Assembly (NCBI GenBank): GCA_026826555.1 | Contig: JAKSZT010054581.1 | Location: 2,203,415-2,267,414 of the forward strand | Direction of reading: 5' to 3' | DNA from: Tolypeutes matacus | Lineage: Eukaryota; Chordata; Mammalia; Cingulata; Chlamyphoridae | Length of the DNA stretch: 64,000 nt | Shown here: in pieces, positions 14,905-64,000 of the stretch | Numbering within the stretch: position 1 is the first letter of the stretch | Layout of the letters: each line of letters starts with the position of its first letter | Made by a program: the position numbers and the translations under genes | The notes under the pieces: generated by a model | What the model saw: the letters and a program-made list of their open reading frames with translations, nothing else | What the model was told of the DNA's origin: nothing | Database searches by the model: none

Positions 14905-15441
14905 ACTTCCATTCCCAACCAAGTTAAGGGAGGAAGGGATGTGAAGATTCATCAGTCTCTCTGGACCAATGCAGGCAGTGTTATCTTGTCCAACTTAGAT
15001 TATTATACATGGCTACAGCTGCATCCCTGCCCCTGACAGAAGAGAAAGGTGGGAGAAGCTTCATCTATTCCTCGGGCAACATGGGGAGCTTCAGTCACCA
15101 CATCTTACAGCAAAAACTAGATCCTCAAATCCTACTACATAAGCTCAAGGGAGAAAAAAGAGAAAGATCTAAACTAAAGGAAAAAACTGCACCCAGAATA
15201 AATACATCTAGCCAGCAGATGCAAAACCACCAACAAAAAATTACAATCCATACAAAGAAACAGGAAGATATGGCCCAGTTAAAGGAACAAGGTAAGCCTG
15301 CAAATGACAAAGGAGTTGAGACAACTAATCATAAATGTTCAAACAAATCTCCTTAATAAATTCAATGAGATGGTTAAAGAGATTATGGACATTAAGAAGG
15401 CACTGGGGTAGAACAAAGAAGAATTTGAATGTATACATAGA
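14905..15441 (+). mobile_element. Old sense L1, part 1: end of 5' UTR and start of ORF1
   Basis: The first 150 bp match the last unit of the tandem 5' UTR at 37,700-37,900. ORF1-like sequence follows. It stops at 15,441, where the L1 at 15,442 is inserted, and resumes at 23,208. The duplication GTATACATAGA at 15,431-15,441 and again at 23,208-23,218 marks the insertion and proves the two parts were once continuous. Confidence 0.75.
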
Positions 15442-15770
15442 GGAGTGGAGAAAAGATGACATTGGATTAGGAGGGCACTCACTGAGAGCTCCCTGAGGAT
15501 GGTGGGTTGTGGACAGGATCCTGCTTGGGGGTCTGTGCTGTGGGCACACAGCGGGAGAAGCTTGGGACGAGAAGCTTGGGACATCTATCTGTTCAAATCA
15601 ATAGCATGGACTGATCAGTAGATATTCTGAACATAGAAAGAAGCAAGGAAATAAAATAAGAAGAAAAAGTGTCAAAGAGAAAACAACAAAAAAACAGAAA
15701 CACAAGTTAAATAAAACTCTAGAGCAGAGAGAGAAGCTGATCAACTGAATAAACCCATCAAGATAAAATG

Positions 15771-16806
15771 ATGACTAGAGGACAGCAAAAAATTAAAGCC
15801 ACACTGAGAAACAGGAAAACATGGACCAGTCCAATGAACAAAGTAAAATCCTGGAAGTGATCCAGAACATTGAACAACTAATCAAAGCTTTCCAAACAAA
15901 TATCATGGACCAATTTAAGAAGTGAAGGAAGAGATAAAGGATATAAAGAAAACACTGGGAAAACATACTGAAGATACTGTAAACATACACAAAAAGATAA
16001 TGGATATGATGGTCATAAATGGCACAATCAAAGAAATAGAAAAGACACAGGATTCACATAAAAGATTTGAACAGACAGAAGAAAGAATTGGTGATGTGGA
16101 AGACAATACATCTGAAATCAAACAGATAGAAAAAAAGATAGAAAAAATCCAGCAGGGACTCAGGGAATTAAACAAAAACACAAAATGCACAAACATATGC
16201 ATTATGGGCATCCCAGAAGGAGAAGAGAAGGGAAAGGGAAAAGAAGGTGTGTTGAAGGAAATAATGGCTGAAAACTTCCCAACTCTATTGAGAGAGATGG
16301 ATGTGCAGATCCAGGAAGAACAGCGCACCCCAAACAGTTTAAATCCAAACAGGCCAACTCCAAGACATATACTTGTCAAAATGTCCAATACTCAAGACTA
16401 AGAGAAAATACACAAGGCAGAAAGAGAAAAGAGAACCATCACATACAAGGGAAGCACAAAAGATTAAGTGCTGATTTCTCAGCTGAAGCCATGGAGGCAA
16501 GAAGACAGTGGTTTGACATAGTCAAAGTACTAAAAGAAAAAAACTTCCGGCCATGAATTATCTATCCAGCAAAACTGGCATTCAAAAATGATGTAGAGTT
16601 CAAAATATGCATAGATAAACAGAAATTAAGAGAGTATGTCAGTAAGAAACCTGCATTCAAGAAATACTAAAGGAAATTCTACAAGTTGAAAGGAAAAAAC
16701 AAGAGAGAGAGTTGGAGGAGAGTTTAAAAACAACTAAAAAGACCAAAACAGAAACAAAACAACATATGACATACATTAACCCAAAGAAAAAAAATGGCTG
16801 AGGTAA
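15771..16806 (+). pseudogene. L1 ORF1 (RNA-binding protein), broken
   Basis: The family protein is a coiled-coil trimer that coats L1 RNA and acts as a nucleic-acid chaperone. The start is chosen by alignment to the ATGAC codon at 46,303 in the other copy. A charged coiled-coil region covers about 15,920-16,180. The RNA-recognition-like core follows (Ile-Met-Gly-Ile-Pro-Glu-Gly at about 16,198), then the C-terminal domain. Indels put these in different frames. The gene ends at a TAA at 16,804-16,806, inside the start of ORF2, so the two frames overlap by 13 bases. Confidence 0.8.
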
Positions 16807-20594: not shown

Positions 20595-23162
20595 ACTGAG
20601 GAAAGTAAGCAGTCTCTGAGAACCTCTGTCTAAAAGATAGGTTAACAAGAGAGAGAAGGGTAGGTTGTGAGCCATCACCCATATGGACATAATCTGTGGT
20701 AAAGGGATAGAATATAGTTGCATATTGAAGGATAGGACAGATGGGTAGTGATATTACTGGGTTTCGTGGTGCAGGCTTAACTGGTGGGTAGATTAGAAAG
20801 GGCAGTTTAGAATACCGAGGGCATGTAAATATGAATCTTGTCATCCCAAGAGTCAAGACACAAGAGTGTCATATGTCCCAGTGGGATGGGGAGGCAGAAA
20901 CAGAAAAAATCAAATGGGGAATTTAGTGGTTATGGGAAATGTTTTTCATTACCTTACATTAATGGACACAGGACATGGTAAATATCATAAAAAATTATTA
21001 AACTGTACCATCTAAATTGTAAACTATACTGTAAACCACTGACAATGTTTAGTAGATATGTTTCACTATCTGTATAACAGTTATAACAATGCTACCATAC
21101 ACACACACACACACACCAAAGATTTTAATATGGGGTGGGGAAGGGGGAGGAAGGTTGGGTACAAGGGAATCTCTAGTATTCAGAGTGTGACTTTGCTGTG
21201 ACCTAAATCTTCTTTGAAAGTAAATGAAAATTTGGGAGACCCTGGGGAATGAGAGGGTGAAGGTGTCACGGTACACACTGGACATCCAATAACACAGTGA
21301 TAAAAGGAGAAAAAATAAAAATAAAAAAATAATTTTTTATTTTTATTTTTTCCTATTTTCTTTTTTTGAATGTCCCAATCAGTTAATAATATTTATTTTT
21401 AGTTCTTTTTTTCTGAGTTTCCTTGTATTTTATCTCTTGCTTTTAAGCTTTCATTATTATTTCATTTTCCTATAAATTGTATTGGATTATTATATCGGCT
21501 TCATCTTCAAGGAAGGTTTAGATCACAGAAGGGTTACAATGGGTACTGCAGAGGATCATTGATGGGGGTGTCTGGGATGGGAGATTCATGGGGGTAAGTT
21601 CATCTGAATATACATGAAAGATATATAAAATTGTTCAAATATTCGAGGGATGGTTCATGGTCACAGTGGGTAGACAATCACTCAATAATTGAGGGAATAC
21701 TGAATTCCAGCCTGGAGAGCTCTGCCACATTCTCCAAGGGAGCAGCAACAGTCCCCTGAGTGAAGGGGCAGTGTATGGCAGAAAAGGATGTCTCACTGTT
21801 GAGTTCTTGTTATTGATGACTAACCTTATGAGTCTTTGCTCTTGTATTTGGAACTTGGCCTACTGTTATGGGGTGCCCAAGTGTTGCCATCTGAGCACCT
21901 CCTTGTTGCTCAAATGTGACTTCTCTCTAAGCCAAACTCAGAAAATGAATGCATTACTTTCCCCTCAATGTGGGACAGGACTCCTGGTAATGAGCCTCCC
22001 TGGCAATGAGGGATTAATACCAAGTGCCAACTGGAAATACAACTGGAAAAAACCTTGACTAAAAGGGGGAAAAGGTAAAAACAAATGAGTTCATGTGCCT
22101 AAGAGACTTCAAAGAGGGTCAGGAGGTCATTCCAGAGATAATGCTTATGTATACATCAGTACGATCTCACAGAACACCAAAGTGGATATCACCCCACACA
22201 GAGGGGCTCCTATGGGCTCTGGGGATATCCAGGTCCTATATAAGGGGGGATAGCCCCAGAGATTGATGCCTTATCAGTGGGCTCTACTTTGGAATCTGTG
22301 TTCCTGAGAGTGACAGTTGGACTCAAATAAGTCCTCCCTGCACATAGTCCATCAGTCCCTTCTATTCAAACCCATATGTGATCCTGGAGTTTGTAGGTGT
22401 ACTTCCAGAGACTAGAGCTTCTGGCCTGCCTATGTGCCAACTGTGCCTGGAATCTCAGTGTAGCTGCAACTCCTCCTCTACAGCTCCATGGACTCACCCA
22501 AGTCACCTGATGAGGAGACAATGATGAACAATGGCCATCCCATGGAATGGAGTGAGCCTGCAGCTGAAGACAGGATAATCCCATCCACCATATCCATGGG
22601 ATATAAGCCCACTCTCACTTGGAGGTGGAATGGACATCACCATTCCAGTCCCCTCAGTAGTGGGGGAAGAGCTATGGACTAGAGTGTTCTTAATTGTATT
22701 TTGTTGCAGACATATTGTGATTCAAGCAATGGAAGAAATTATAACAGTGACATGGAGCCAGTGGGCACTAGATGGTTTCATGGTGGGGAGGGGAATGGCT
22801 CTTGTAATACAGGGGCTTTTTCAAGACTTGGGGTTTGTCCTGAGTGACGTTGTGGTGACGGGTATAGGCCATTTTACATCAGCATATACCATGCAGAACT
22901 GTGTGGGAGAGAGTGTGGCCTATGATGTGACCTGTGGTCTATGCTTAGTGGCAAAGTCCCAGGATGTGTATATCCATTGCTGGTCTTGTCCCACACTAAT
23001 GAAAGATATTTATGTGAGATGTTATGGGAGGTATGGGTGGTGGAGATCATGGGAATCCCTGTAGTTTTTAATGTAACATTTATGTAATGTAAATATATCT
23101 TTTAAAATATATATGAAAAAATAACATTTATGTAAGCAAATGCACATATATGCATATATAAC

Positions 23163-23200
<38 letters not shown>

Positions 23201-23207
23201 AAAGAAA
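20595..23207 (+). other. Very long L1 3' UTR (about 2.6 kb)
   Basis: From the ORF2 stop to the downstream target-site duplication there is 2.6 kb of non-coding L1 sequence, collinear with 51,141-53,700 of the other copy. It contains a CA repeat (21,099-21,116), an A/T-rich stretch near 21,305-21,370, a TATA-like block at 22,236-22,244 and an open frame at 22,630-23,064. Collinearity in two copies with separate insertion sites shows it is part of the element and not flanking DNA. Human and mouse L1 3' UTRs are much shorter. Confidence 0.8.
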
Positions 23208-24762
23208 GTATACATAGAAAAATAGCAGACCTTATGGGAATGAAAGTTGCAATAAATGAAATTAAAAATACAATGGAGGCATATAACAGCAGATTTGAGG
23301 AAGTAGAAAAAAGGATCAGTGGGTTTGAGGACATGGCCCCTGAAAGTGCACAAACAAAAGAACAGATGAAGAAAAGAATGGAAAAAGTTGAACAGGGCCT
23401 CAGGGAACTAAATGACAGCAAGAGATGTGCAAATATATGTGTCATGGGTGTCCCAAAATGTGACAAGAAGGGAAAAGTATCAGAAGGAATATTTGAAGAA
23501 ATAACGGTGGAAAATTTCCCAACCCTATTGAAGAACACAGATATCTGTGTCCAAGAAGCACAACATACTCCCATCCAAATAAATCCAAATAGAATAACTC
23601 TTAGACACATACTAATCAGAATGTCAAATGCCAATGACAAAGAGGGAATTCTAACAGCAGGAAAAAAAAGCAATGCATAACATATAAGGGATATCCAATA
23701 AGAGTAAGTGCCAATTTCTCATCAGAAACCATGGAGACAAGAAGGTAGTGGTATGATATATTTAAAATACTGCAAGAGTAAAACTGCCTGCCAAGAATTT
23801 TTTATCTGGCAAGATTGTCTTTCATAAATGCCTTTACAGTAATATCATTGAATGTTAATGAATTAAGCTCCCCAATCAAAAGAAACAGACTGACAGAATG
23901 GATAAGAAAATATAAGCCATCTCTATGTAGTCTGAAAGAGACTCACATTAGACTCAAGGGTACCAATAGATTGAAAGTGAAAGGTTGAAAAAGATATTCC
24001 ACACATGCAGTAATCAAAAAAATGCTGGAGTAGTTGTACTTACATCAGATGATATAGACTTTAAAAGCAAAAATGTTCTGAGGGACAAGGAAGGATATTA
24101 CATATTAATAAAAGGGATGATTCACCAGGAAGAAATAACAATCATAAATGTATCTTCACCTAACCAGGATGTCCCAAGATACATGAGGCAAACAATGGCA
24201 AGACTGAAGGAAGAAATAAACAACTCTATAATAATAGTTGGAGACTTCAATACACCACACTCAACACTGGATAGAACATCTAGGCAGAGGATCAGTAAAG
24301 AAATAGAGAGCTAGAATACTATAAATGCACTAAATCTAATAGACATATACAGAACACTGCATCCCAAAACAGCAGGATATATATTCTGTTCAAGTGCTAA
24401 TGGATAGACCATATATTGGGTCACAAAGCAGATCTCAATAAATTCAACAAAATTGAAATTACACAAGGCACTTTCTTTGATAATAATGGAATAATGTTGG
24501 AAATCAACAAGAGGCAGAACAGGGGAAAATTCACATATGTAAGTAGATTAAACAACACATTCCTGAATAATCAATGGGCCAAAGAAGAAATTTCAAGAAA
24601 ATCAATAAATATCTTGAGATGAATGGCAATGAGAACACAACATATCAGAACATATGGGATGCAGTGAGGGCAGTGTTGAGAGGAAAATTTATAGCCTTCA
24701 ATGATTACATTAAAAAGAAGAAAGAGCTAAAAATCAATGACCTAACTACACAGATATAATTT
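23208..24762 (+). mobile_element. Old sense L1, part 2: ORF1 and ORF2 endonuclease region
   Basis: This continues the L1 interrupted at 15,441. ORF1 coiled-coil and core sequence (23,220-23,790) is followed by the ORF2 endonuclease region (about 23,850-24,760). Frames are open in pieces, for example 148 codons at 23,234-23,680 and 109 codons at 23,985-24,314. The element stops abruptly at about 24,762 without poly-A, so its reverse transcriptase and 3' end are missing. Confidence 0.8.
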
Positions 24763-31344: not shown

Positions 31345-32324
31345 TTTAGGTTTAGTTTGTTGTTGTTTTTCCAATTCCTCCAAGTGTGCAATTAGGTCTT
31401 CATTTTTTCTCTTCTTTTTTAATATATGTATTTATGGTTATGAACTTTCCTCTCAGGACAGCTTTGGCTGCATCCCATAGGTTTTGATATGTTGTGTTGT
31501 CATTTTCATTAGTTTCAAAATAGTTAGAGATTTCTTTTGAGATATCCTCCTTGACCCACTGTTTGTCTAAGACTGTGTTGTTTAACTTCCATATCTTTGT
31601 GCCTAATCTGATTCTCTGGCCCTTAGTGATTTCCAAGTTCATTCCACTGTGGTCAGAGAAATTACTTTGTATTATCTCAATCTGTCTGAATTCATTGAGA
31701 GTTTTTCTGTGGCCTAGCATATGGTCTATCTTGGAGTATGATCCATGTGCACTCGAGAAGAATTTAAATCCTGCTGTATTTGGTTGTAGTGTTCTGTATA
31801 TGTCTATTAGGTCCAGTTCCTTTAATGTATTGTTGAGATCCTTTGTTTCTTTATTGATTCTCTGTCTAGATGTTCTGTCTAATGTGGATAATGGTGTATT
31901 AAAGTCCCCCACTATAATTGTAGAGGCATTTATTTCTCCACTTAGTTTTTCCAGAGTTTGCCTCATGTATTTTGAGGCACCCTGATTTGGTGCATAAATG
32001 TTTATGATTGTTCTGTCTTCTAGAGTGATTACACCTTTTGATAATATAGGGTCCATCTTTGTCTCTTACAGTAGTTTTGCATTTAAAGTCTATTTTGTCT
32101 GATATTAGAATAGCTAATCCTACCCTTTTTTGACTATTGTTTGCTTGTAAAATTGTTTTCCAGCCATTCATTTTCAGCTTCCTTGAATCCATGTGTTTCT
32201 TGTAGACAGCATATTGATGGATCATATTTCCTTATCCATTCTGCCAATCTAGTCTCTTGACTGGTGAATTTAATCCATTAACATTCAGTGTTATTACTTG
32301 CAATGAATTTCTTACTTCAACCAT
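31345..32324 (-). pseudogene. L1 ORF2 endonuclease domain, truncated
   Basis: The start codon (complement of 32,322-32,324) overlaps the ORF1 stop by 13 bases. The endonuclease region is largely open, with 108 codons at 31,899-32,225 and 218 codons at 31,400-32,056 in a second frame, so one indel separates them. Family endonucleases nick AT-rich target DNA. The reading frame ends at the element's truncation near codon 325, so no reverse transcriptase is encoded. Confidence 0.85.
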
Positions 32325-33371
32325 ATTTTCTTTGGGTTAATGTATGTTCTATATTGTTTTTTTTTTTCTCTTTTTATCTTTTTAGTTGTTTTTAAATTCT
32401 CCTCCAACTTTCTCTCCCTTGTTTTTTTCCTTTCAACTTGTAGAACTTTTTTTAGTATTTCTTGAAGTGAAGGTTTCTTATTGGCATACTCTTCTGATTT
32501 TTGTTTATCTGTGAATATTTTGAACTCTCGATCGTTTTTGAATGCCAATTTTGCTGGATAAATAATTCGTGGCTGGAAGTATTTTTCTTTTAGTACTTTG
32601 ACTATGTCATACCATTGTCGTCTTGCCTCCATGGTTTTAGAAGAGAAATCAACACTTAATCTTATTATGTTTTCCTTGTATGTGATGGTTCTCTTTTTTC
32701 TTGCTTCCTTGACTATTTTCTCTTTGTCTTGAACATTGGAAATTTTGACAAGTATATGTCTTAGAGTTGGCCTGTTGGGATTTATACTGTTTGGGGTGTG
32801 CTGTGCTTCCTAGACTTGTACATCCATCTCTTTCACTAGGGTTGGGAATTTTTCAGCCATTATTTCCTTCTACATTCCTTCTTTTCCATTTCCCCTCTCT
32901 TCTCCTTCTGGGATGCCTATAATCCATATGTTTGCATGTTTTGTGTTGTTGGTTAAATCCCTGAGTCCCTGCTAGCTTTTCTCTATCTTTTTATCCATCT
33001 GTTCTTCTATCTGTTTGATTATAGATGTATTGTCTTCCACATTATTAATTCTTTCTTTTGCCTGTTCAAATTTGCTGTTATGTGAATCCAGCATCTATTT
33101 GATTTCTTGCATTGTGCTATTGATCACCATCATATCTTTTATCTTTTTACGTATGTTTACAATATCTTCAGTATGTTCTCCCAGTGTCTTCTTAATATCC
33201 TTAATCTCTTCCTTCACTTCGTTAAGTTGGTCCATGATATTTGTTTGGAAAGCTTTGATTAGTTGATTGATGTTCTGCATCTCTTCCTGTTTTTAGTTTG
33301 TTCATTGGACTGGTCCATGTCTTCCTGTTTCTCAGTGTGGTTTGTAATTTTTGTTACCCTCTAGTTGTCAT
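32312..33371 (-). pseudogene. L1 ORF1, broken
   Basis: On the minus strand, from an ATGAC start at 33,371 to a TAA at 32,312. The N-terminal coiled-coil is open at 33,095-33,280 and the C-terminal domain at 32,312-32,632 (106 codons, ending Ile-Asn-Pro-Lys-Lys). Stops and indels disrupt the core between them. Expected length is about 350 codons, as in the copy at 46,303. Confidence 0.8.
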
Positions 33372-34551
33372 TTTATCTTGATGGGTTTATTCAGTTGATT
33401 ATCTTCTTTCTCTGCTCTAGAGTTTTATTTAGCTGTTGTTTCTGTGTGTGTTAATTTTTCTCTTAGACAATTTTTCTTCCTATTTTATTTCCTTGCTTCT
33501 TTCTATGTCCCCTTTAAGGCAAAAGATTAGGGCCAGAGGAATTGAAAGATGTGAGAAAGGAAGAAGGATAATTGTAATATTGGAAAAAGTTAGAAAAGGG
33601 ACCATATAAGACCTAGTAAAATGAATATTTTACTCATGTAGGCAGTGTAGATATAGGAAAAAAAGTGGAGTACCTACAATGAATTGGGAAAACAAATAGA
33701 AGAAAATATATATTATGATTTAGATGGCTAGAATGATGAGGAGAGAAAGAGTAAATAAAGGGCTGAAAGGAAAAAAGTTACTATTAATCAAAAAATGAAG
33801 AAAACAGAATAGATAGAATAGATATTGACACCTTTGAAGTTGTGGGCTAATGAAAAAAATGAGGTATGTAAGGACCACAACAGAAAGCAGAAGATGAAGG
33901 AAGTAAAAGAGATAGCATTGAGAGATAAAGTCAATATAGACAGCAAATAGGAAATCACTGAAGAAGAAGCACAGCAAAGAAGATACAAGCTAGCAGCATC
34001 TAAAAAAAAAATTAAAAAGGAAGAAAGAAAGAAAAAAGGAGGGGGGGAGGAAAAAGGAAAGAAATGCAAGAGACAACAAATAAACAAAGAAAAACCAAAC
34101 AACCACACAAACAAACAGTCAAAGAAAGCTAAGGAAGCACAGTGTTCCTTCTTGGGCTCTTGTGGTACCTCTCAGCCTGCTTGTGTTCATTAATAATTTG
34201 CCCTGCAAGGTTCTATCTGCAGGTTTTGAGGCAGATTTTAGCTATTAAAATAAATTTAAAAAGAAAATTTATTTTTTTTATTTTTAAAAGTGACTGTCTT
34301 TATTTTGCAAAATAAGGGAACCAAAATATGTCCTCTTCTAGACCACACCCTTCACTGAGGGGACCCTAACTAGGTTTGTGGAAACTAATCAAGCACCTCC
34401 CACTTCCTGGCCTCCCCAAGGGAGCTGAAGCTCTGATGCTAGTCAGTGCAGAATGATAAAATTGGCTGACTCTGCCCCCTCTGGAGCCAAGCCTGTGTAT
34501 CATGGGGCTGTTGGGTAAATCAGGCTTCCTCATTAGATTTGCTTCTCCTCT

Positions 34552-34990
34552 CAGCCTGGCCCTGCTTCAAGCCAGCTTATCTGCTCCCCAAAGCTAAGAG
34601 GGGGCCCAGGCAGCCAAATCCACATAAAGAAAACCCCTCTCCACCTTTGTCAGAACCCTCCCACTGTCAGAGAATGCTACTTCTCACCGTGTTGCTGGCA
34701 GGAGTTGGGGTTTATCCCTGGGCATCTAGGTAAATCAACCTTCCTCAGCAGATTCACCTGAGATTCACTCAACCTGGTCTGGCTTCAAGCCAGCTATTTT
34801 GTTCCCCAAAGCTGCAAGGGTTTCCAGGTAGCAAAATCCACAAAAGGGAAAACACTCTTGACCCTCCACCAGAATCCTCCCACTTTTGGAGAATGTTCCC
34901 TCTCACCAGGTTGCCAGGGGGAGTCATGGCTCAAATCAGCCTTTTTCCCTGAGGGTGGGGCTCAGTCATCTGTGTTTATCACCACAAGCA
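34552..34990 (-). repeat. Tandem duplication in L1 5' UTR, about 219-bp unit
   Basis: Two diverged units lie head to tail. The shared GCTTCAAGCCAGCT block occurs at about 34,565 and 34,784. A CCCCAAAGCT block, a CCCTCCCACT/CCTCCCACTT block and an AGAATG block follow in the same order. The L1 at 44,548 has one clear unit (about 44,920-45,130) and a partial one before it. L1 promoters in some mammals are built from repeated 5' UTR units, so this may affect promoter strength. Confidence 0.7.
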
Positions 34991-35185
34991 GGGGAAAATC
35001 TCATCATTCCTTCCCAAGCAATCTGTGCCATCCAGATCCCTCCAGAGCGATGTCCCTAAGGTTCTTGCTCCTTGCACCCCCAGCAGAGACCCCTGGGCAG
35101 GACCCTGTCCTCAATCAGCCATCCTCAGAGAGCAAGTCAGTGAGTGTCCTCCTAAACCAACATCATCTTCCTGCAATTCTCTGAA

Positions 35186-38939: not shown

Positions 38940-39094
38940 CAGAAAATAGTCACTGTAGCTCCACAAAGGTGGTTTACCCAGGGTGCAGAATATCCATTGC
39001 ACTCTGGATGTGCTGACTCCTGCGATTTCCCCAAATGTGGGAAAATCAACTGAATAATTTGTGGTAGTGAGGGACTGCATTTGTTCTCTCCCTG
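38940..39094 (+). pseudogene. U1 snRNA retropseudogene
   Basis: From about 38,965 the sequence follows U1 small nuclear RNA closely: the AAGGTGGTTT block, the stem-loop text with ATCCATTGCACTCTGGATGT, the GATTTCCCCAAATGTGGGAA block, the Sm-site region AATTTGTGGTAGTG and the 3' hairpin ending CCCTG. U1 recognises 5' splice sites through its first nucleotides, and here the first 25-30 bases are badly diverged. The 3' end is followed by a TAAA-rich tail, as expected for an RNA copied by L1 machinery. No snRNA promoter element is seen upstream. Confidence 0.9.
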
Positions 39095-39100
39095 GTAAAA

Positions 39101-43579: not shown

Positions 43580-44128
43580 AGATTTGGAAGGCTAGAATTA
43601 TGAGGAGGGAGAGAAAGAGTAAATAAAGGGCTGAAAGGAAAAAGTTAATATTAATTGAAAAAGAAGAAAACAAAATAGATAGAATAGAAATTGACACCCT
43701 TAAGTTGCAGGCAAATGAAAAAAATATGGTATATAAGAACCACAACAGAAAGCAGAAGGCAGAAAGATGAAGAAAGAATAAGAAATAGCTTGGGATACAA
43801 AATCAATATAGACAGAGACTGGGAAATCACTGAAGAAGAAGCACAGGAAAGAAGAGACAAGCTAGCAGCACCTAATTAAAAATAATGAAAGAAAAAATTA
43901 AGGGGGGAGGAAAGAGGAAAGAAAATCAAGAGACAACAAATAACCAGAGAAAAACCAAACAACCATATATGCAAGCAGTCAAACAAAGCTAAGAAAGAAC
44001 AGTGTTCCTACTAGGGTCCTTGTGGATCCTCTCAGCCTGCTTGTGTTTAATCAATCAATTTTGCTGCAGGGTTCTATCAGCAGGTTTTGAAGCAGATTTT
44101 AGCTATTAAACTAAATTAAAAAGAAAGA
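43580..44128 (-). mobile_element. Isolated antisense piece of L1 5' UTR intron-like segment
   Basis: The reverse complement matches 45,415-45,930 of the complete L1, and it matches 33,725-34,275 directly. The whole piece therefore comes from inside the 44,718-46,157 segment that the 15,442 L1 lacks. On the plus strand it ends in an A-rich run (about 44,110-44,134). Similar ten-base words sit on either side (AAGTAATACC at 43,568 and AAATGATACC at 44,133), but this duplication is weak. Confidence 0.65.
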
Positions 44129-44389: not shown

Positions 44390-44547
44390 CCAAGATTCTG
44401 AAGGGATTGCAGAGTTTTGGTGTCAACATCAAGGACTTGAAGTATGTAGCAAAAGGCATTCCCACCATGACCCCATTCAACTGTCATATTTGGCCCAATG
44501 ACTCTTGAATGATGATAATGAATTATCATACTTTAACAAGGCATTGA
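44390..44547 (+). pseudogene. ERVL reverse-transcriptase N-terminal part
   Basis: The short region looks like the start of the ERVL reverse transcriptase and runs up to AACAAGGCATTGA (44,535-44,547). The retroviral text resumes after the nearly identical AACAAGGAATTGA at 53,864-53,876, so the 9.3-kb L1 inserted inside this gene. Frameshifts and stops are present on both sides. Sequence at 44,130-44,390 is unassigned. Confidence 0.7.
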
Positions 44548-44717
44548 GAGAGGGGCCAAGATGGTGTTAGTGTAGGAGGGCACACACTGCAAGCTCCCAG
44601 AGCAAGGTGGATTGTGGACAGGGTCCTGCCTGGGGATCTGTGCTGTGCATGCATGGAATGAGAAGCTTGTACATCTATCTGCGCAGATCAACAGTGTGGA
44701 CAGAATGGTAGAGATTC

Positions 44718-46157
44718 GTGAGTTTTAAGCATGCTGGTGTTGGCTGGCACAGATGGCTGAGCCCCGCGGTTAGGGAGAAAAAAAAATAAAACAGCTGTTT
44801 GGAGCCGCAAGCAGAGCAAGAAAGGTTTATTTTCTGGGGATTTGGCTGCCTGGAGTCCCTTGGACCTTGGGTGAACAGAACAACTGGAGCGAATTGGCAC
44901 CTGGTGGAGGGGAGGGGTGATTTGCCTAGATGCCCAGGGATAAGCCCTGGGCCACCGCTGAGCCAGGAAGAGGGGACACTCTCCAAAAGAGGGAGGGTTC
45001 TGTTGTAGGACAGGGAAAGGAATTTTTTTTTTTTTGCCATTGATCTGGCTGCCTGGATCACCCCATAGCTTTGGGGAGCAGATAAGCCGACCTGAAGCAG
45101 CATCAGGCTGACAGGAAAAGCGAATCTGCAGAGTCAAACTGATTTACATAGCAAACTGGTGATGCTGGTGTTCAGCTCCAGAAGGGGCGGAGTAGGCCGT
45201 CTTTAGCACTATGCACTGACTAACATCAGAGCTACAGCTACCCTGGGGAGTCAAGGAAGTGGGACATGCTAGATTAATTTCCACTAGCCCAGCTAGGGTC
45301 CCTTCCATAAGGGGGTTGTTCTACAAGAGAAATTATTTTGGGTCCTGTATTTAGACAAAAAAAAAAAAAATGAGAGAGAGAGAGAGAGAAGGTCACTTCA
45401 ATAAATGAAAAACAAATACTTTTTAATTTAGTTTAATAGCTAAAAGCTATTATAGAACCCTGCAGGGAAATTGATTGATAAACACAAGCAGGCAGAGGAT
45501 CCAGATGGACCCTAGGGGAATCATTGACCCTCCTTAGCTCTGTTTGACTGATTGCCTGTGTGGATCTTTGGTTTTTCTGTTTATTTCTGGTCTCTTGCTT
45601 TTCTTTCCTCTTTCCTCCCCCCTTTCTTTTTTCTTTCATTTTTTAAAATTAGGTGATGCTAGCTTGTTGCTTCTTTGTTGTGCTTCTTATTCAGTAAGTT
45701 CCCACTCGCTGTCTATACTGATTTTGTATTTCAAACTATCGCTTATCCTTCCTTCATCTGTCTGCCTTCTGCTTTCTGTTCTTGCTCTTAGATACAACAT
45801 TTTTTCATAGGCCCACAACTTAAGGGTGTCAATTTCTATTCCATCTATTTTGTTTTATTCTTTTTTTTTTTGTATTAACTTATTCCTTTCAGCCCTTTCT
45901 TTACTATTTCTCTCCCTCCTCATAATTCTACACTTCTAAATGACTATATATATATATATATATTCCTCCATTTGTTTTCCCAGTCCATTGTAGGAACTCC
46001 ACTTTTTTTTCTTATTACTCTACACTTTCTACACAAGTTAAATATTCATCTCATTAGGTCTCATTTGGCCCACTTCTAAATTTTATCACTATTACTATTA
46101 TCCTTCTGCCTTCCATATATCTTTTGATTCCTCTGACCCTAATCTTTTGCCTTCAAG
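44718..46157 (+). other. Intron-like segment in L1 5' UTR (GT...AG, 1,440 bp)
   Basis: It begins GTGAGT after GTAGAGATTC and ends with a long pyrimidine-rich tract and TTGCCTTCAAG before GGAACATAG. A CCCTAAT branch-point-like motif sits about 20 bases before the end. The L1 at 15,442 reads GTAGATATTC directly followed by TGAACATAG (junction 15,627/15,628), so the flanks join with no extra or lost base. Within the segment are a 219-bp unit, a GA repeat and a TA repeat. A chance deletion is possible, but exact GT-AG borders make splicing the better explanation. Confidence 0.8.
45355..45390 (+). repeat. A run followed by (GA)n
   Basis: An uninterrupted A run followed by nine GA units inside the L1 intron-like segment. 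Nothing functional is claimed. Confidence 0.9.
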
Positions 46158-46302
46158 GGAACATAGAAAGAAGCAAGGAAATAAAATATGAAGAAAAAGT
46201 GCCAAAGAGAAAACCTAACTCACACGCAGAACCAACTGCTAAATAAAACTCTAGAGCATAGAGAAAAGCTAATCAACTGAACAAACCCATGAAGATAATG
46301 TG

Positions 46303-47355
46303 ATGACCAGAGAGGAACAAAAAAATACAAATGACTCTGAGTAACAGGAAAACATGGACCAGTCCAACGAACAAATTAAAAATCAGGAAGTGATGCAGAA
46401 CATCAAACAACTAATCAAAGATATCCAAACAAATACCGTGGACCAACTTAAAGAAGTGAAGGAAAAGATTAAGGACATAAAGAAGACACTGGGAGAATAT
46501 ACTGAAGAAATTGCAAACATGCCTAAAAAGGTAATGGATATGATGGTGAACAATGGCACAATCTGAGAAATCAAAAAGACTCTGGATTCACATAACAGCA
46601 GATTTGAACAGGCAGAGGAAAGAATTACTGATATAGAAGACAATACAGCTGAAATCAAAGAGATAGTAGAAGAGATAGACAAAAAGATAGAAAAAATCCA
46701 GCATGGACTCAGGGAATTAACTGATAATGCAAAATGCATAAACATATTCATTATGGGCATCCCAGAAGGAGAAGAGAAGGGAAAGGAAACAGAAGGAGCA
46801 TTGAAGGAAATAATCACTGAAAACTTCCCAACTCTATTGAGAGAGATGGATGTGCAGATCCAGAAAGAACAGCACACCCCAAATAGTACAAAACCCAACA
46901 GGCCAACTCCAAGACATATACTTGTCAAAATGTCCAATGCTCAAGACAAAGAGAAAATACTCAAGGCAGCAAAAGAAAAGAGAACCATCACATACAAGGG
47001 AAGCACAATAAGATTAAATGCTGATTTCTCACCTGAAACCATGGAGGCAAGGAGACAGTGGTATGACATAGTCAAAATACAAAAAGAAAAATAACTTCCA
47101 GCCACAAATCTTCTATCCAGCAAAACTGGCATTCAAAAATGATGGAGAGTTCAAAATATTCACAAATAAACAGAAATTAAGAGAGTATGTCATTAAGAAA
47201 ACAGCATTTCAAGAAATACTAAAGGAATCTCTACAAGTTGAAAGGAAAAACAAGGGAGAGAGTTGGAGGAGAGTTTAAAAACAACTGAAAAGACAAAAAC
47301 AGAAACAAAACAACATATGACATATATTAACCCAAAGAAAAAATGGCTGAAGTAA
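46303..47355 (+). pseudogene. L1 ORF1 of the complete L1, broken
   Basis: The ATGAC start is conserved with 15,771 and with the antisense copy at 33,371. Expected product is about 350 residues, close to the human 338. Seen in order: a charged coiled-coil region (46,354-46,720), the RNA-binding core with Ile-Met-Gly-Ile-Pro-Glu-Gly (46,750), and a C-terminal domain with Arg-Arg-Gln-Trp-Tyr (47,050). A stop at codon 14, a TGA at 46,564-46,566 and a frameshift near 47,090 inactivate it. It ends 13 bases inside ORF2. Confidence 0.85.
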
Positions 47356-50300
47356 GAAATTCGTTACGGGAAATAACACTGAATGTTAATGGATTAAATT
47401 AACCAATCAAGAGACACAGATTGGCAGAATGGATAAGAAAATATGATCTATCTATATGCTGTCTACAAGAAACTCACTTCGACACAGGGATTCAAGGAGA
47501 CTGAAAGTGAATGGCTAAAAAAACAATTTTATAAGCTAACAATAGCCAAAAAGGGCAGGAGAAGCTATTCTAATATCAGACAAAATAGACTTTAAATGAA
47601 ATCTATTGTAAGAGACAAAGATGGACACTATATATTAGTAAAAGGAGTAATGTCTCAAGAAGAGAGAACAATGATCAACATTTATGCAACTAATCAGATG
47701 TGTCAAAATACATGCTGCAAACTCTGGAAAAACTAAGAGGAGATATAAATGCCTCTACAATTATAACAGGGACTTAAACATACCACTATCATCATTACAC
47801 AGAACATCTAGACAAAGAATCAATAAAGAAACAAAAGCAATCAACAATACATTAGAACTCCTGGACTTAATAGACATATACAGAACATTACACCCAAATA
47901 CAGAAGGATTTACATTCTTCTCGAGTGTACATGGAACAGACTCCAAAATAGACCACATGCTAGGCCACAGAAAAACTCTCAATGAATTCAGAAAGATTGA
48001 GATTATACAAAGTAATTTCTCTGACCACAAGGGAATGAAATTGGAAATCACTAAGGGACAGAGAAACATGTTAGGCACAAGGATATGGAAGTTAAACAAC
48101 ACACTCTTAGACAAACAGTGGGTTAAGGAGGAAATCTCAAAAGAAATCAGTAACTACCTTGAAACTAATGTAAATGACAACACAACATATCAAAACCTAT
48201 GGGATGCAGCAAAAGCAGTCCTGAGAGGGAAGTTCATAGCCATAAATTCATATATTAAAAAAGAAGAAAGAGCTAAAATTGAAGACCTAACTGCACACTT
48301 GGAGGAATTTAGGAGGAATTCTATCCCTAAAGGAGGTAGAAGAAGGAAATAACAAAGATTACAGCAGAACTTAATGAAATAGAGAATAAGAAAGCACTGG
48401 AAACAATAAAACCAAAAGCTGGTTCTTCGAGAATATCAATAAAATTGACAAGCCCTTAGCTAAACTAACAAAGAAAAAGAGAGAACAGATGCAAATATAT
48501 AAAATAAGGAATGAGCAAGTGGATATCACTACTGAACCCACATAAACAAAGAGTATCATAAGAGGACACTTTGAAATATTATATGCCAACAAGAATAACA
48601 ATTTCGAGGAAATGGACAAGTTTCTAGAAACCCTCAAACAGCCTACATTGATGAAAGAAGAAATAGATGAACTCAACAGTCAAAATACAAGTAAAGAGAT
48701 AGACTAAGTCATCAAAATCCTCCCAACTAAGAAGAGTACAGGACCAGATGGCTTCACAGCTGAATTCTACCAAACATTCCGGAAAAAGCTACCACCAATT
48801 CTACTTCAGCTCTTCCAAAAAATAGAAGTGGAAGGAATATTGCCTAACTCATTCTATGATGCCAACATTACCCAAATACCAAAACCAAATAAAGATACCA
48901 CAAGAAAGAAAAATTACAGACCAATTTCCCTATTGAACCTAGATGATAAAATCCTCAACAAAATATTTGCTAATCACATTCAACAACATATCAAAAGGAT
49001 TATACACCATGACCAAGTGGGTTTCATCCGGGTATGCAAGGATGGTTCAATAAAAGAAAATCAATCCATGTAATACACCACATAAACAGATTGAAAGAAA
49101 AAAATCACATGATCATCTCTATAGATGCAGAAAAAGCATTCAACAAAATACAGCACTCTTTCCTCATAAAATCACTGCAAAAGATAGGAATAGATGGAAA
49201 CTTTCTGAATATGATAAAGGGTATATATGAAAAACCCAAAGCTATCATCATTTTCAACGGTGAAATCCTAAAAGCCTTCCCTCTGAGATCAGGAACTAGA
49301 CAAGGATGCCCACTATCACCACTCCTATTTAACATTGTCTCAGAAGTACTTACGCGAGCACTGAGAAAAGAAAAGGACATAAAAGGCATCCAGATTGGAA
49401 AAGAAGAAGTAAAAATTTCATTATTTGCAGATGACATGATCCTATACATAGAAAGCCCTGAGAAATCTACAACAAGGTTTCTAGAACTTATAAAGGAGTT
49501 CAGTAATGTTGCAGGCTATAAGATCAATGCTCAAAAATCATTAGCATTTCTATACACCAATAATGAGCAAACTGAGGTGGATATCAGGAAAAAAATACCA
49601 TTTACAATAGTAAATAAAAGAATCAAATACCTAGGAATAAATTTAACTAAAGATGTAAAGGACTTATATACAGAAACTACACAACACTGTTTAAGAAAAT
49701 AAAAAGACTTAAATAAATGGAAAAATATTCCCTGTTCATGGATAGGAAGAGTAAACATCATCAAGATGTCTATCCTACTCAAACTAATCTACAGATTTAA
49801 TGCAATCCCAATAAAAGTCAACACTATATTTTTTAGGTACAGGAAAAACTAACCACAAAATATATTTGGAGAGGCAAGAGGACCCGAATTGACAAAGGCA
49901 TATTGAAAAAGAAAAGTGAAGTTGGAGGTATCACACTACCTGACTTTAAAACATACTACAAAGCTACAGTCATCAAAACTGCATGGGATTGGCACAAGGA
50001 TAGACCTACTGACCAATGGAACCGAATTGAGAGTCCTGATAAAGATCCTCGCATATACAGTTATCTGATATTTGTCAAGGCCTAGAAGCCCACTCATTTG
50101 GGAGAGAATGGTCTCTTTAAAAAGTGGTGTTTGGAGAACTGGATATTCATATCCAAAAGAGTGAGAGAAAAATACCATCTCACACCTTATACAAAAATCA
50201 ACTCAAGATGGATCAAAGATCTAAGTATAAGAGTCAAAAACATAAAGATCTTGGAAGATAATGTAAGGAAGCATCTACAGGACCTTGTAATAGGAAATGG

Positions 50301-51140
50301 TTTCATGAACTTCACAGCCAAAGCATGAGCAGCAAGAGAAAAAATAGATAAATGGGATCTCATCAAAATTAAAAACTTCTGCACCTCAAAGGATGTTATT
50401 AAGAAAATAAAAAGGCAGCCTTACCCAATGGGAGAAAATATTTGGCAACCATATATCTGATAGGAGCCTAATATCCTGCATATATAAAGAAATCCTATAC
50501 CTTGAAAATAAAAAGACAAACAACCGATTTAAAAAATGGGCAAGTGACCTGAAAAGACACTTCTCCAAGGAAAAAATAGAAATGGCTAAAAAGCTCATGA
50601 AAAAATGCTCAACATCGCTTGCTATCAGGGAAATGAAAATCAAAACTATAATGAGATACCACCTTACACCCATCAAAATGGCAGCTATTAAAAAACAGGA
50701 GACACTAAATGTTGGAGAGGATGTGGAGGAATAGGAACCCTCCTCCACTGCTGGTGGGACTGTGGTATGGTCCAGCCACTGTGGAGGACAGTTTGGAGGT
50801 TCCTCAGAAAACTAACAATAGATCTTCTGTATGATCCAGCAATTCCACTGCTGGGATATACCCAGAAGAACTGAAAGCAAAGACACAAACAGATATATGC
50901 ACACCAATGTTCATAGTGGCATTGTTCATCATTGCCAAAAGTTGGAATCAGCCCCAGTGCCCATCAACAGACGAATGGATAAGCAAAATATGGTACATAC
51001 ATACAATGGAATATTACTCAGCTGTAAGAAGGAATAAAGTGCTAACACATGGAATAACGTGGATGAATTTTGAAGACCTTATGTTGAGTGAAGCAAGCCA
51101 GGCACTGAAGGATGAACAGTATATGACCTCACTGATTTGA
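47343..51140 (+). pseudogene. L1 ORF2 of the complete L1, broken
   Basis: ATG at 47,343 and stop at 51,138-51,140 give 1,266 codons by coordinates, normal for the family. The endonuclease region covers 47,400-48,200. The reverse transcriptase follows, with [10 protein letters not shown] (49,294) and an intact Phe-Ala-Asp-Asp (49,424-49,435). A C-terminal region follows to the end. Two large pieces stay open (222 codons at 47,684-48,352 and 222 codons at 49,034-49,702). At least five breaks separate the open pieces. Confidence 0.9.
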
Positions 51141-53665
51141 ACTGAGGAAAGTGAGCAGTCTCTGAGAACCATTGTCTGAAAGATAGGTTAATACCTGAGA
51201 GAAAGAGAAGAGCAGGCTTTGAGCCATCACCCATATGGACATAATCTATGGTAAAGGGATAGAGTATAGTTGTATATTGAAGGATAGGACCGATGGGTAG
51301 TGATATTACTGGGTTTGGTGGTGCAGTGTTGACAGGTGGGTTGATTTGGCAGGGCAGGTTCACATACCAAGGGCATGTAACTATGAATCTTGACATTCCA
51401 TGAGTCAAGACAGGGAGTGTCATATGCCCCAGGGGAGTGGGGAAGAAGGAACAGTTAAGATCTAATGGAGTATTTAGTGGTCATAGAAAAGGTTTTTCAT
51501 TACCTTGCAGTAATGGACACAGGACATGGTAAATATCATTAAAAGTTATTAAACTGTATCGTGTAAATTTTAAACTATACTGTAAATCATTGACAATGTT
51601 TAGTTGCTATATTTTGCTATCTGTAAAACAGTTATAACAATGCTAACATCCAAAAAAAGGGGGAGTTAATACAGGGTGGGTAAGGGGGTGTTGTTTGGTA
51701 TCTGGGAGTCTCTGGTATTCCATGTTTGACTTTGCTGTGACATAAAACTTCTTTGAAAATTAAATGAAAATTTGAGAGACACTGGTGATTGAGAGGGGGA
51801 AGGTGTCATGGCACACTGGATATCTGATAACACAGTGAAAAAAGTAAAAAAAGGATATATATATATATATTTTTAAAGGCATTTCTTTTGCTTTTTTCCC
51901 CATTTTTTGAATGTCCCAATCCGCTAATTATATTTTGTTTTGTTTTGTTTTTTGTTTGATTGTTTGTTTGTCTTTTTTTTTTCCTGAGTTTCCTTATGTT
52001 TGTCTCTTGCACGTAAGCTTTTCATTGTTGTTTCTTTTTCCTATTAAGTGTACTTGATTATTTTATGGGCTACATGTTCATGGAAGATTTAGATCACAGA
52101 AGGGTTACAATAGGTACTGCAGGGGACTATTGGTGGGGGGTGTCTGGGAGGGTGGATTCATGGGAGTAAGTTCATCTGAATATACATGAAAGATATATAA
52201 AATTGTTCAAAAGATCAAAGGATGGTGCATGGTCACGGTGGGTGGACAACCACTCAATAAATGAGGGAATCTGAATTCTTAGCCTGGAGAGCACTGCCAC
52301 ATTCTCCAAGGGAGCAGCAACAGACCTCTGAGTGCAGGGACAGTGTCTGTCAAAAGAGGATGGCCCACTGATGAGTTCTTGTTATTGATGACTACCCTTA
52401 TGAGTCTTTGCTCTTGTAACTGAAACAGCTTACTGTTATGGGGTGCCTAAGGGTTGCCACCTGAGAGCCTCCTTGTTGCTCAAATCTGGCCTCTCTCTAA
52501 GCCAAACTCAGCATATGAATGCATTATCTTCCCCCCAATGTGGGACATTCCTCCCGGGGATGAGCCTCCCTGACAGTGAGGGATTACTACAAAGTGCCAC
52601 CTGGCAACACAACTGGAAAAAAACCTTGAATAAAAGGGGGAAAAGGTAAAGACAAATGAGTTCAAGTGGCTAAGAAACTTCAAAGAATGTCCGGAGGTCC
52701 TCCCAGAGGTAATGCTTATGCACACCTCAGTAGGAGCTCATAGAACATCAAAGTGCATATCACCCCACACAGAGGGCCTCCTGAGAGCTCTGGAGACACC
52801 CAAGTCCTATAAAAGGGGGGATAGCCCCAGAGACTGATGCCTTATCAGTGGGCTCTATTTTGGAATCTGTGCTCTTGAGAGTGATAGAATTGGACTCAAA
52901 TAAGTCCTCCCTGCACAGGGTTCATCAGTCCCTTCTATTCAAACCTGTATGTGATGCTGGAGTTTTTAGGTATACTTCCAGAAACTGGAGCCTCTGGCCT
53001 ACCTATGTGCCAGGTGTGCATGGAATCTCCTACCCTTCAGCTCAATGGACTCATCCATGTCACCTGGTGAAGAGACATTGATGGGCAACAGCCATCCCAG
53101 GGAATGGAGAGGGCCTACATCTGCAGGCAGGATCATCCCCCCCACACCATATCCATGGGATATAAGCCCTCTCTCATTTGGAGGTAGAGTGGACATCACC
53201 ATCCCAGTCCCCTTAGGATTGGGGGAGAAACTATGGACTATAGTGGACTTGATGGTATTCTGTTGTACACATATGGTGCTTCTAGCAATGGAAGAAATTA
53301 TAACAGTGAGGTGGAGCCAGTGGCCACTGGACACTTTCAGGGCAGGGAGGGGATGTGCAGTTGAAATACAGGGACTTCTTTGGGATTTGGAGGTTGTCCT
53401 GAGTTCCATTGTGGCAAAGGATGTAGGCCATTTTAAATCAGCACACATCATTCAGAACTATGTGGGAGAGAGTGTGATCTATGATGTGAACTGTGGTCTA
53501 TGGTTGATGGCAAGTCCTCAGGATGTGTAAGTCCATTGAGGATGATGGGCCACACTTGTGGGAGATGTTTGTGTGGGATGTGGTGGGAGGTGTGGGAGGT
53601 GGGGAACATGGAAATCCCTGTAGGTTCTGTGTAATATTTAGGTAAGTTAAGCACCTCTTTAAAAA

Positions 53666-53724
<59 letters not shown>

Positions 53725-53863
53725 TATAACATTTTTGTAAGCAAATGCACATATATACATTTATATTCATATATCATTTTACAAATATTGGTATGTATTG
53801 TGAAAAATTTGATTTTTAGCCACAATAAAAATAAATTAATTAAAAAAACAACAAGAACAAAAA
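51141..53863 (+). other. Very long L1 3' UTR (2.7 kb) with true 3' end
   Basis: Collinear with 20,595-23,207. It carries an A/TA-rich patch (51,840-51,880), a TATA-like CCTATAAAAGG (about 52,805), an open frame at 53,045-53,530, an A and TA repeat (53,660-53,720) and the terminal block that is also found at 6,180-6,310 and 39,298-39,430. It ends in AATAAAAATAAATTAATTAA and a degenerate A tail before the target duplication. Confidence 0.85.
53660..53720. repeat. A run and (TA)n inside L1 3' UTR
   Basis: About 14 A bases followed by about 25 TA units. The same place in the 15,442 L1 also holds TA repeats (23,164-23,186), so instability at this point is a property of the element. Confidence 0.9.
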
Positions 53864-54490
53864 AACAAGGAATTGACTCCAATTGCACCTGCTCTTCCAG
53901 ATGTGGTATAATTGCTTGAGCAAACAACACATCCACTGGTACCTGGTTTATAGCTATTGATTTGGCAATATTTTCCCTGACACCTATTAGTAAAAATGAC
54001 AGGAAACAGTGTCCCTTCAGCTGGCAAATACAGCAATAAACTTTCACTGTAGTGCCACAGGTTTACATCAACTCTCCAGTCCTATCTTACAATCTAGTCC
54101 ATAGGAAAAATGATCACTTTTCCATAAGACATCACACTGATCCATTACATTGATGAAAGTATGCTGACTGGACCTAGAGACCAAATTGTAGCAACTACTA
54201 TAGTCTTATTGATAATATATTTGCATGCCAGAAGATGGGAAATAACTCCAACAAAAATTGAGGGGCCTTTCACCTCAGTGAAATTTCTAGGCATCCAATG
54301 CTGTGGGACATCAAGATATATCTTGTATCTGTTCCTTCCTACAACCAAAAAATGAGGCACAATGCCTAGTTGACCTCTATTGATTTTCAAGGAATTAGAT
54401 TCCTCATTTTGGTGTACTACCCCAGCCCATTTAACAAGTGACCCAAAAAGTCATAAGGTTGGACAAAGTGGCATATACAAGACCATGCCT
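53864..54490 (+). pseudogene. ERVL reverse-transcriptase fragment downstream of the L1
   Basis: This continues the reverse transcriptase interrupted at 44,547. The catalytic box near 54,145 reads Tyr-Ile-Asp-Glu where Tyr-Ile-Asp-Asp is expected. The following stretch (54,161-54,355) stays open and ends in a stop, and other stops lie upstream. Together with 42,560 and 44,390 it forms one provirus fragment in plus orientation. Inactive. Confidence 0.8.
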
Positions 54491-60486: not shown

Positions 60487-61400
60487 GAAATTGGTACCAA
60501 GAGAGTGGGATGCCACTGCTTGCAATTACCAAAGATGTTGGGAGGTCTACAAATGTGTAAGAGGTGTTTTTTCAAGGAATTGTGAGATGCTTGATTAAAA
60601 GTGCTTACATTTCTTTGAAAAGAATGTTGGTAAAAAAATATGTATTCTAAATATGAAAATACCTTAGTGGAAATGGTGAAACTATTATTGGACACTGGAG
60701 GAAAGACAAATCTTGTATTAAAGTTACAGAAAACTTGGCAAAAATATTCTCCTAATGTTAGATGGAAGGTAGAATTTGAAAATGATGAGCTTGGACATTT
60801 AGTTGTTGATATTTCCAGATTAAATGTGGAAAATGCAGCTTAACTTCTCCATATAGCTTACAAGAAAATATGAGAGGAAAGAAATAAACTAAGAATTGAA
60901 CTGCTGGAAACAAAGAAACCCAAAATTGATGGCTTGGGAAATTCCAAGCTTCCAGAAAACAAGGCCCCAGAGGACAGTGTTTAAATGAGAATGCAGCCAT
61001 TGTTTAAGCCCAAGGAAATGGTTGGGCCACATGAGGCCCTGAGAAGACATCATTCTATAGATGACTCTCAGACTTTGAAATTTAATAGAGTAGGCCCTAC
61101 AGGTTTTAAAATTTGAGACCAGTGATATCTGTTTTCCTTCCATTTTCTCCTTATGGTAATGCAAATGTTTATCTTATATGTAACAGTTTTATAAGTTTCA
61201 CATGGCTACAGCCAGAGGGAAACTTTGCCCCAAGACAAACTGCATGCCTCTAACTGCTGTTGTTTTTTAATATGTGCACTGTTCCTGAAGATATTGCAGT
61301 ACCAGGTCAATGAATGGAGTGGGCAGAGCAAGTTCCTATCCATCTCCCTATTCCAAAAATCCATTTCATATATTGTCCTCAGAGAATTTATCAGATATTA
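60487..61400 (+). pseudogene. MaLR internal region (gag-like, decayed)
   Basis: It directly follows the LTR. A TTGGTACCAAGAG block at 60,491 sits in the primer-binding-site position. Gag-like internal text follows, with one open stretch of 67 codons (60,640-60,843). Blocks such as AATGTGGAAAATGCAGCTTA and GGCCCCAGAGGACAGTGT are typical of MaLR internal sequence. The boundary with unassigned sequence (61,400-61,650) is approximate. Confidence 0.65.
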
Positions 61401-62026
61401 AGCTAAGAACAGATGTCACATACGTTCTTATCCAAAAGGCTGAGAAGTAATATATAACTGACTTTGATGTGATTTTGTACTTAGCATTGCTTTCTATGGA
61501 AAGAATCTCTGAAGAGTGTCATCTGCTGATAGAATGGGAGACTGCATGAAGTACAAAAGGTTTTTGGATTATCAGACCCCTTGAATCTGACTTATGCCTC
61601 ATTAATGGATCCCTGCCCTTGTTTTGATAACTTAAGTTTGGTAATCTTAAAGACAGAGTAAGTTGAAACAAAAATCAAATAGGATCCATGAAACAAAACA
61701 ACCATCAGAGAAAATTCACCAGCATAATCAGATGCTTAGACATGAGCAAAAAAATTACAAGTGATATGAATAATCAGGAAGATATAATCCAGCCAAAGGA
61801 ACAAGTGAAAAATCCTGATGAGAAGCTAATTTAAAATTTTAAGACAACTAATCAATAATGGTCACACAAATCTCTTAAATCAATTAAGGGAGTTGAAGAA
61901 AAATATGACTACATAGATTAATGATATTCCAAAGACACTGAGAATAAGGAACAAGTTGAAATCCTGCAGAGAAAAGAAAAAGAGCTATGGGAATGAAATA
62001 CACAATGGATGAGATGAAAAACACAA

Positions 62027-63850: not shown

Positions 63851-64000
63851 TAGGGAAGTGGCTGTGGCTCAATCAGTAGGGCTCCCGTTTACCATATGGG
63901 AGGCCCTGGGTTCGGTTCCCAGGGCCTCCTGGTGAGGGCAAGCCCGCCTGCGTGGCGTGGTTAGCTGACCCAGTGAGCACAAGCAAGAAGGGGGGATAAA
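63851..64000 (+). repeat. tRNA-derived SINE, cut by the window end
   Basis: A well-preserved A box (TGGCTCAATCAGTAGGG, 63,864) and B box (GGGTTCGGTTCCCA, 63,909) are followed by the tRNA-unrelated region GGTGAGGGCAAGCCCGCCTG. It follows AAAACCTATGGG (63,838-63,849) in L1 ORF2, likely one copy of the target duplication. The other would lie beyond 64,000. Confidence 0.9.

Follow-up and report, generated by a model that had tools for sequence, protein, structure and literature searches.

Two L1 elements lie in the same orientation within the 64,000-nucleotide stretch of Tolypeutes matacus DNA analysed here (the window), and the element starting at 15442 (element A) goes without 1,440 bp that the element starting at 44548 (element B) has in its 5'UTR. 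Was this segment missing from the RNA that gave rise to A, or was it lost from DNA? A preliminary description of the window proposed that it was absent from the inserted RNA or removed with exact GT-AG borders, and noted that spliced integrated L1s are known in human, where they have indeed been described as SpIREs (spliced integrated retrotransposed elements; PMC5860796). The proposal is supported by the recurrence of the junction, by alternative splice sites and by GT and AG in unspliced relatives. Retrotransposition of spliced L1 RNA, recurring with a second donor and another acceptor while intron-containing elements stayed the source, is very probably the best explanation, and we read A as a SpIRE of a kind made repeatedly in this probably xenarthran L1 lineage.

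Element A and the borders of its missing segment

The placement of the junction rests on splice-blind blastn and on an ungapped junction scan. The blastn alignment of A to B stops at A 15627 and B 44717 and resumes at A 15629 and B 46159, and both methods agree with the earlier claim that the gap corresponds exactly to B 44718-46157. When the ungapped junction was slid from -12 to +12, the best match was 32 of 40 bases, tied at offsets 0 and +1. The gap-free alignment of A to the joined flanks of B that had been claimed is thus found at two tied placements, one of which (offset 0) gives the GTGAGT start and the pyrimidine tract plus CAAG end that had been described (GTGAGT...TCTTTTGCCTTCAAG, that is, GTGAGT...CTTCAAG). 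The segment makes up most of the B 5'UTR (about 1.44 kb of 1.8 kb, 80%), including its G+C-richer first part, and branch-point-like CTGAC and CTAAT stand about 22 and 16 nt ahead of the acceptor. Past the junction, A is 88.3% identical to B over 2,148 aligned bases and 88.6% identical to a third, unspliced element (C) over 2,141.

Scored with an approximate splice-site matrix, the donor is middling, 12th among the 70 GTs of the B 5'UTR, with a poor exon side (TTC), and the acceptor ranks 5th among 132 AGs. By the same approximate scoring, 30 of 1,000,000 random 1-2 kb spans of B have both borders scoring as well, and 5,096 have GT..AG at either of two adjacent placements. Across the whole window, the corresponding figures are 36 spans with equal border scores, again by the approximate scoring, and 5,876 GT..AG spans per 1,000,000.

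A starts within 1 nt of the B start and continues into ORF1/ORF2 homology (blastn, junction scan), and therefore has a canonical L1 5' end. An L1 ORF1 domain was detected in A, and ORF1 and RT domains in B. ORF1 starts at 15821 in A and at 46354 in B, and both exons of A lie upstream of the ORF1 ATG; the reading frames of A are broken, so that A itself is dead. The 11-bp target duplication claimed around A is present on both sides, with a continuous empty site. This empty site, with one GTATACATAGA copy and the flanks joined by script, runs in register with ORF1 of other L1s across the insertion point, indicating that A inserted into an older L1. The probable duplication around B (13 bp, one mismatch) does not rise above its mismatched-pair control (240 pairs).

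The preliminary description also had both ends of A present, which does not hold at the 3' end: B and a copy near 6235 go on for roughly another 100 bp and have an AATAAA-type terminus, whereas A stops at T16 AAAGAAA. Comparison of the 3' ends of these three elements revealed no clear poly(A) in A. The nick site, scored for A only, reads GTATAC/AT on the bottom strand and is a poor match to the L1 endonuclease consensus (TTTT/A or a variant). This nick site, the weak exon side of the donor and the missing 3' terminus and poly(A) of A count against the SpIRE account. Human SpIREs "generally" end in poly(A), often degenerate in older copies (PMC5860796), which makes the tail usual and no strict feature. 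At 23090-23207, A ends (TA)n T16 AAAGAAA ahead of the target duplication, possibly because the nicked target primed at an internal site of the RNA.

Table 1. Coordinates in the window of the three L1 elements and their parts (a slash within a motif marks a splice boundary).
Feature	Position	Strand	Evidence
Element A, L1	15442-23207	+	blastn to B
Upstream target-site duplication of A, GTATACATAGA	15431-15441	+	exact 11-bp match to 23208-23218; beats 240/240 mismatched control pairs; empty site continuous
Downstream target-site duplication of A	23208-23218	+	flank comparison, joined-flank alignment, control-pair score
5' head of A, putative exon 1 of spliced L1 RNA	15442-15627	+	74% identity to B head, 160 aligned columns
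Putative splice junction in A, ATTC/TGAACATAG	15627-15628	+	junction scan; 25 other loci with same acceptor, 21 of these with same donor
Putative exon 2 of A, rest of 5'UTR up to ORF1 ATG	15628-15820	+	homologous to B 46158-46353
Body of A: ORF1 and ORF2 relics, 3'UTR; without terminal ~100 bp, ends T16 AAAGAAA	15821-23207	+	blastn to B, ORFs, 3'-end comparison
Probable upstream target-site duplication of B, AACAAGGCATTGA	44535-44547	+	13 bp, 1 mismatch to 53864-53876; 95/240 control pairs as high
Element B, L1	44548 to about 53863	+	blastn
5' head of B (exon 1), unspliced	44548-44717	+	blastn against A
Segment between two putative 5' splice sites; alternative donor GTAGAG from 44708	44708-44717	+	equivalent bases missing in L003, L010, L019, L024
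Putative retained intron of B, 1,440 bp, GTGAGT...CTGACCCTAATCTTTTGCCTTCAAG, branch-point-like CTGAC and CTAAT	44718-46157	+	junction scan
AG matching alternative 3' splice site of L056	45651-45652	+	alignment of L056
Exon 2 of B, ORF1/ORF2 relics, 2.7-kb 3'UTR	46158-53863	+	blastn, ORFs
Element C, unspliced relative; intron body and acceptor TTAAAG/GG (33512/33511) kept, donor ATGAGAT	31345-35180	-	blastn

Other copies with the junction and their relationships

The preliminary description proposed a genome search for the junction at 15,627/15,628 and took the absence of any further copy as grounds for giving up the splicing account. We searched the 3.63-Gb assembly (5,002 contigs) with a 221-base query across the junction and fetched 30 loci from the best 40 scored places of 1,342 candidates. 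Twenty-six of the 30, A included, run from the head directly into exon 2 with the same acceptor, and four keep the intron. Judged by upstream flank, the 26 spliced loci represent 23 distinct insertions. Four of them (L004, L005, L008 and L009; three on contig C4634 and one on C894) share a stretch of tandem repeats as their upstream flank, with 76-89% similarity along it, and were therefore counted as one; apparently, a single spliced insertion was amplified along with a satellite-like repeat. No other flank-sharing pair was found among the 26 at E≤1e-5 (400 bases of flank and start). Six of the ten further scored places are spliced by query coordinates only, and the four that were read are unspliced (L055, L057, L058) or have a different junction (L056). 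The best 40 of 1,342 hence comprise 32 places with the main acceptor, one with the other junction and seven unspliced; since the junction query favours spliced copies, 32 of 40 is no frequency.

More than one donor is found among these copies. By-eye reading of an alignment of the 26 loci showed that 22 join after GTAGAGATTC or a variant of it, before GTGAGT (TTC/GTGAGT), and that in four (L003, L010, L019, L024) this ten-base piece is missing and the junction follows ATCG or its equivalent, the removed piece starting GTAGAG and ending at the same AG. Moreover, L056 (G000:C4265:338110-338250, minus strand) joins this second donor to what comes after B 45651-45652, an AG with a long pyrimidine tract above it, and would represent a second splice isoform fixed as DNA. 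That a further GT donor and a further AG acceptor are in use is not explained by a single ancestral deletion, whereas splicing predicts such sites.

An ancestral deletion would also have been suggested, according to the preliminary description, if all unspliced relatives lacked GT/AG. The donor reads GTGAG in seven of 11 unspliced copies (B, L022, L027, the second L016 element, a second element in L042, L055 and L058), and the acceptor AG is present in all four read there (B, C, L020, L022). ATGAG stands at the donor in the remaining four (C, L016, L020, L057); it is preceded by TTC in L016, L020 and L057, where CpG decay of TTCGTGAG would explain it, and the surroundings of the site are more divergent in C. 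The intron is found in copies with A-like, B-like and C-like heads.

Target duplications were sought in 20 fetched stretches of 10 kb, 14 of which have a recognisable 3' end, and in A, the best flank match being compared with 240 mismatched pairs. Eight of these 15 spliced copies (A, L032, L037, L040, L041, L043, L045, L046) beat every control, and their eight duplications all differ in sequence; in the other seven, no duplication rises above the 240 control pairs, which weighs against the SpIRE account. In L032 and L037, the repeat is found 17-20 bp inward of the expected start, indicating slight shortening at the 5' end; in L045 and L046, it is 70 and 15 bp past the expected 3' end, respectively. 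Other spliced copies, L041 and L043 among them, have A-rich tails at the 3' end. A separate observation concerns the upstream flanks of L034 and L049: there, spliced copies from different subfamilies (L006, L028) are both adjoined by L1 sequence that breaks off at one and the same point of ORF2, about 5444 of B's element, which is perhaps a favoured target.

In trees, spliced and unspliced copies are mixed. A tree of head plus exon 2, for which the bootstrap had yet to settle, contained 30 rows: 23 spliced copies (L005, L008 and L009 being dropped as duplicates) and seven unspliced ones, three with heads only. L016 and L027 entered as heads because L053 and L054, searched as their 3' parts, gave no acceptor match. 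The spliced label changes six times on this tree (5-6 over bootstraps), and at least two changes are forced by well-supported branches. Unspliced B groups with spliced L012, L015 and L018 at 100/100, A pairs with unspliced L020 at 85/84, and seven spliced copies (L013, L014, L021, L025, L028-L030) form a 98/98 clade with no unspliced member among the sampled copies. As 213 of 500 label shuffles gave equally few changes, clustering of the label is neither shown nor excluded. In a body tree of 4,990 columns and 23 rows, where B and C are the only unspliced elements, B falls once more at 100/100 with L038, L041 and L043, which are longer fetches of L012, L015 and L018. This tree is star-like, with terminal branches of 0.025-0.073 and inner ones all below 0.005 except that leading to B and L038/L041/L043, a shape that we read as numerous copies descending from a source line that persisted. 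Because a copy without the intron is unable to regain it, that source must presumably have kept the intron.

A head-only query, which is blind to splicing, gave the best 40 scored places of 1,877 candidates. Six have the main acceptor junction (A, L002, L003, L004, L005 and L006, with L004 and L005 counting as one event) and one is L056. Seven were read as unspliced, and nine more are unspliced since a donor-spanning query, all of whose best 40 scored places (of 3,288 candidates) span the donor, covers head plus intron there. Among heads most like that of A, the spliced share is therefore at least 7/40 (best 40 of 1,877), or 7/23 of the assigned places, 17 being assigned to neither class; leaving A out and counting L004/L005 once gives 5/38. 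In human, 131 of 6,609 L1s are spliced, about 2% (PMC5860796). The apparently higher share here is a lead, coming from a small sample ranked by likeness to A.

How the junction may have arisen

In the mechanism that we favour, an L1 transcript from the canonical 5' end would lose about 1.44 kb of its 5'UTR to the spliceosome, at the 5' splice site TTC/GTGAGT and the 3' splice site TTGCCTTCAAG/GG. The product, whose two exons both precede ORF1, would then have retrotransposed into ORF1 of an older L1, producing the 11-bp target duplication. Such splicing, drawing also on the donor 10 nt further upstream and on at least one acceptor besides the main one, would recur in more than one L1 subfamily, intron-containing elements remaining the source and spliced copies being left around the genome. 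We infer that the spliceosome removed the segment at the RNA stage. By analogy with human SpIREs, where measurements showed that promoter activity is lost and that most copies are dead ends (Larson et al. 2018, PMC5860796), the intronless copies here would likewise have lost promoter function and would mostly lead nowhere.

Alternatively, splicing may have happened once or a few times, the spliced element then becoming a source from which many copies, perhaps A among them, inherited the junction. The 98/98 clade of seven spliced copies would fit such an intronless lineage, as would a human SpIRE apparently reactivated from a gene promoter (PMC13174262). However, exact regain of the intron is impossible for a copy without it, and B in its 100/100 clade and L020 beside A are unspliced; two donors and two acceptors are in use as well. 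We therefore regard this course of events as unlikely. A chance or recombinational genomic deletion of the 1,440 bp in A or its source, with GT..AG coincidental, is scarcely credible: apart from being conceivable, it can draw on the two tied junction placements, but borders this good are found in only about 30 of every million random spans, the same acceptor junction occurs in 23 distinct insertions, and the piece removed in the second variant is also GT-initial. Recurrence and alternative borders lead us to reject a single deletion.

Equally little credence is due to the reverse order of events, in which the segment entered B-type elements later and A represents an older, shorter 5'UTR. Among the places closest to A, 32 of 40 are A-type copies (with a query that favours them), but the intron is present behind three types of head and would have had to enter at one site in each, and the 10-nt-shifted and mid-intron junctions would go unexplained. 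We rejected this model on the existence of intron-containing copies with several head types. Retrotransposition of RNA spliced in the 5'UTR, then, remains the preferred reading. A bolder extension of it, which we consider distinctly improbable, would make such splicing a regular and long-lasting part of expression in this L1 lineage: through conserved donors and acceptor, a good part of the transcripts would be stripped of most of their 5'UTR, the spliced RNA possibly acting as mRNA and the unspliced RNA as genomic RNA, as in retroviruses, with the insertions as a fossil record.

Human spliced L1s and other features of the window

The human intra-5'UTR SpIREs (SpIRE97/622 and SpIRE97/790; PMC5860796) are alike in that an L1 RNA from which a 5'UTR segment had been spliced out at GU..AG was retrotransposed with target duplications; copies occur across several subfamilies, and the junction is upstream of ORF1. 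The human SpIREs examined use one donor (G98U99) and several acceptors, whereas here at least two donors serve one main acceptor plus one other. The intron also differs in length (about 1.44 kb of a 1.8-kb 5'UTR here, 524 nt in human 97/622; PMC5860796), and the 5'UTR and splice sites look unrelated to the human ones by impression, without alignment. Human SpIRE97/976 (PMC5860796) is likewise a splice-derived L1 insertion, but its cut reaches into ORF1, in contrast to the two exons described here. L1-made processed pseudogenes also derive from spliced RNA that was reverse-transcribed and inserted with target duplications; here, however, the spliced RNA is that of L1 itself, which is normally intronless.

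By titles and abstract openings, and with subscription papers mostly outside the scope, we found no account of spliced L1 insertions in xenarthrans. PMC13174262 concerns human loci, PMC5860798 is a commentary on Larson et al., and PMC13251070 and PMC1764860 deal with xenarthran retrocopies and L1 phylogeny, their covered passages leaving spliced L1 insertions unmentioned. A phenomenon known from human L1 seems to have occurred with other splice sites in another mammalian lineage. Apparently unrelated splice sites, a choice of donors and what looks like a higher yield in a second lineage suggest that L1s generally may carry splice sites that are hard to lose. This lineage also offers a second natural experiment, both on the reasons for the persistence of these sites and on a possible role of splicing as a brake on L1.

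Some further features lie outside this argument. A 3'UTR of 2.6-2.7 kb follows the end of ORF2 (51141-53863 in B, 20595-23190 in A); three open frames in it have no Pfam match at E≤1, and the idea of a hidden third gene in the 2.7-kb 3'UTR was rejected on this ground. Just upstream of B, an isolated antisense piece of the 5'UTR intron alone (43582-44126, matching 45419-45941) has an A-rich run at its end and might be retrotransposed antisense or intron-derived RNA. U2-like (61269-61451, minus strand) and U1-like (38943-39095, plus strand) snRNA sequences score above the Rfam gathering score and are probably retrotransposed copies. Finally, a tRNA-derived SINE head at 63856-63931, called tRNA-Gly by ARAGORN, presumably resembles the DAS SINE of armadillos.
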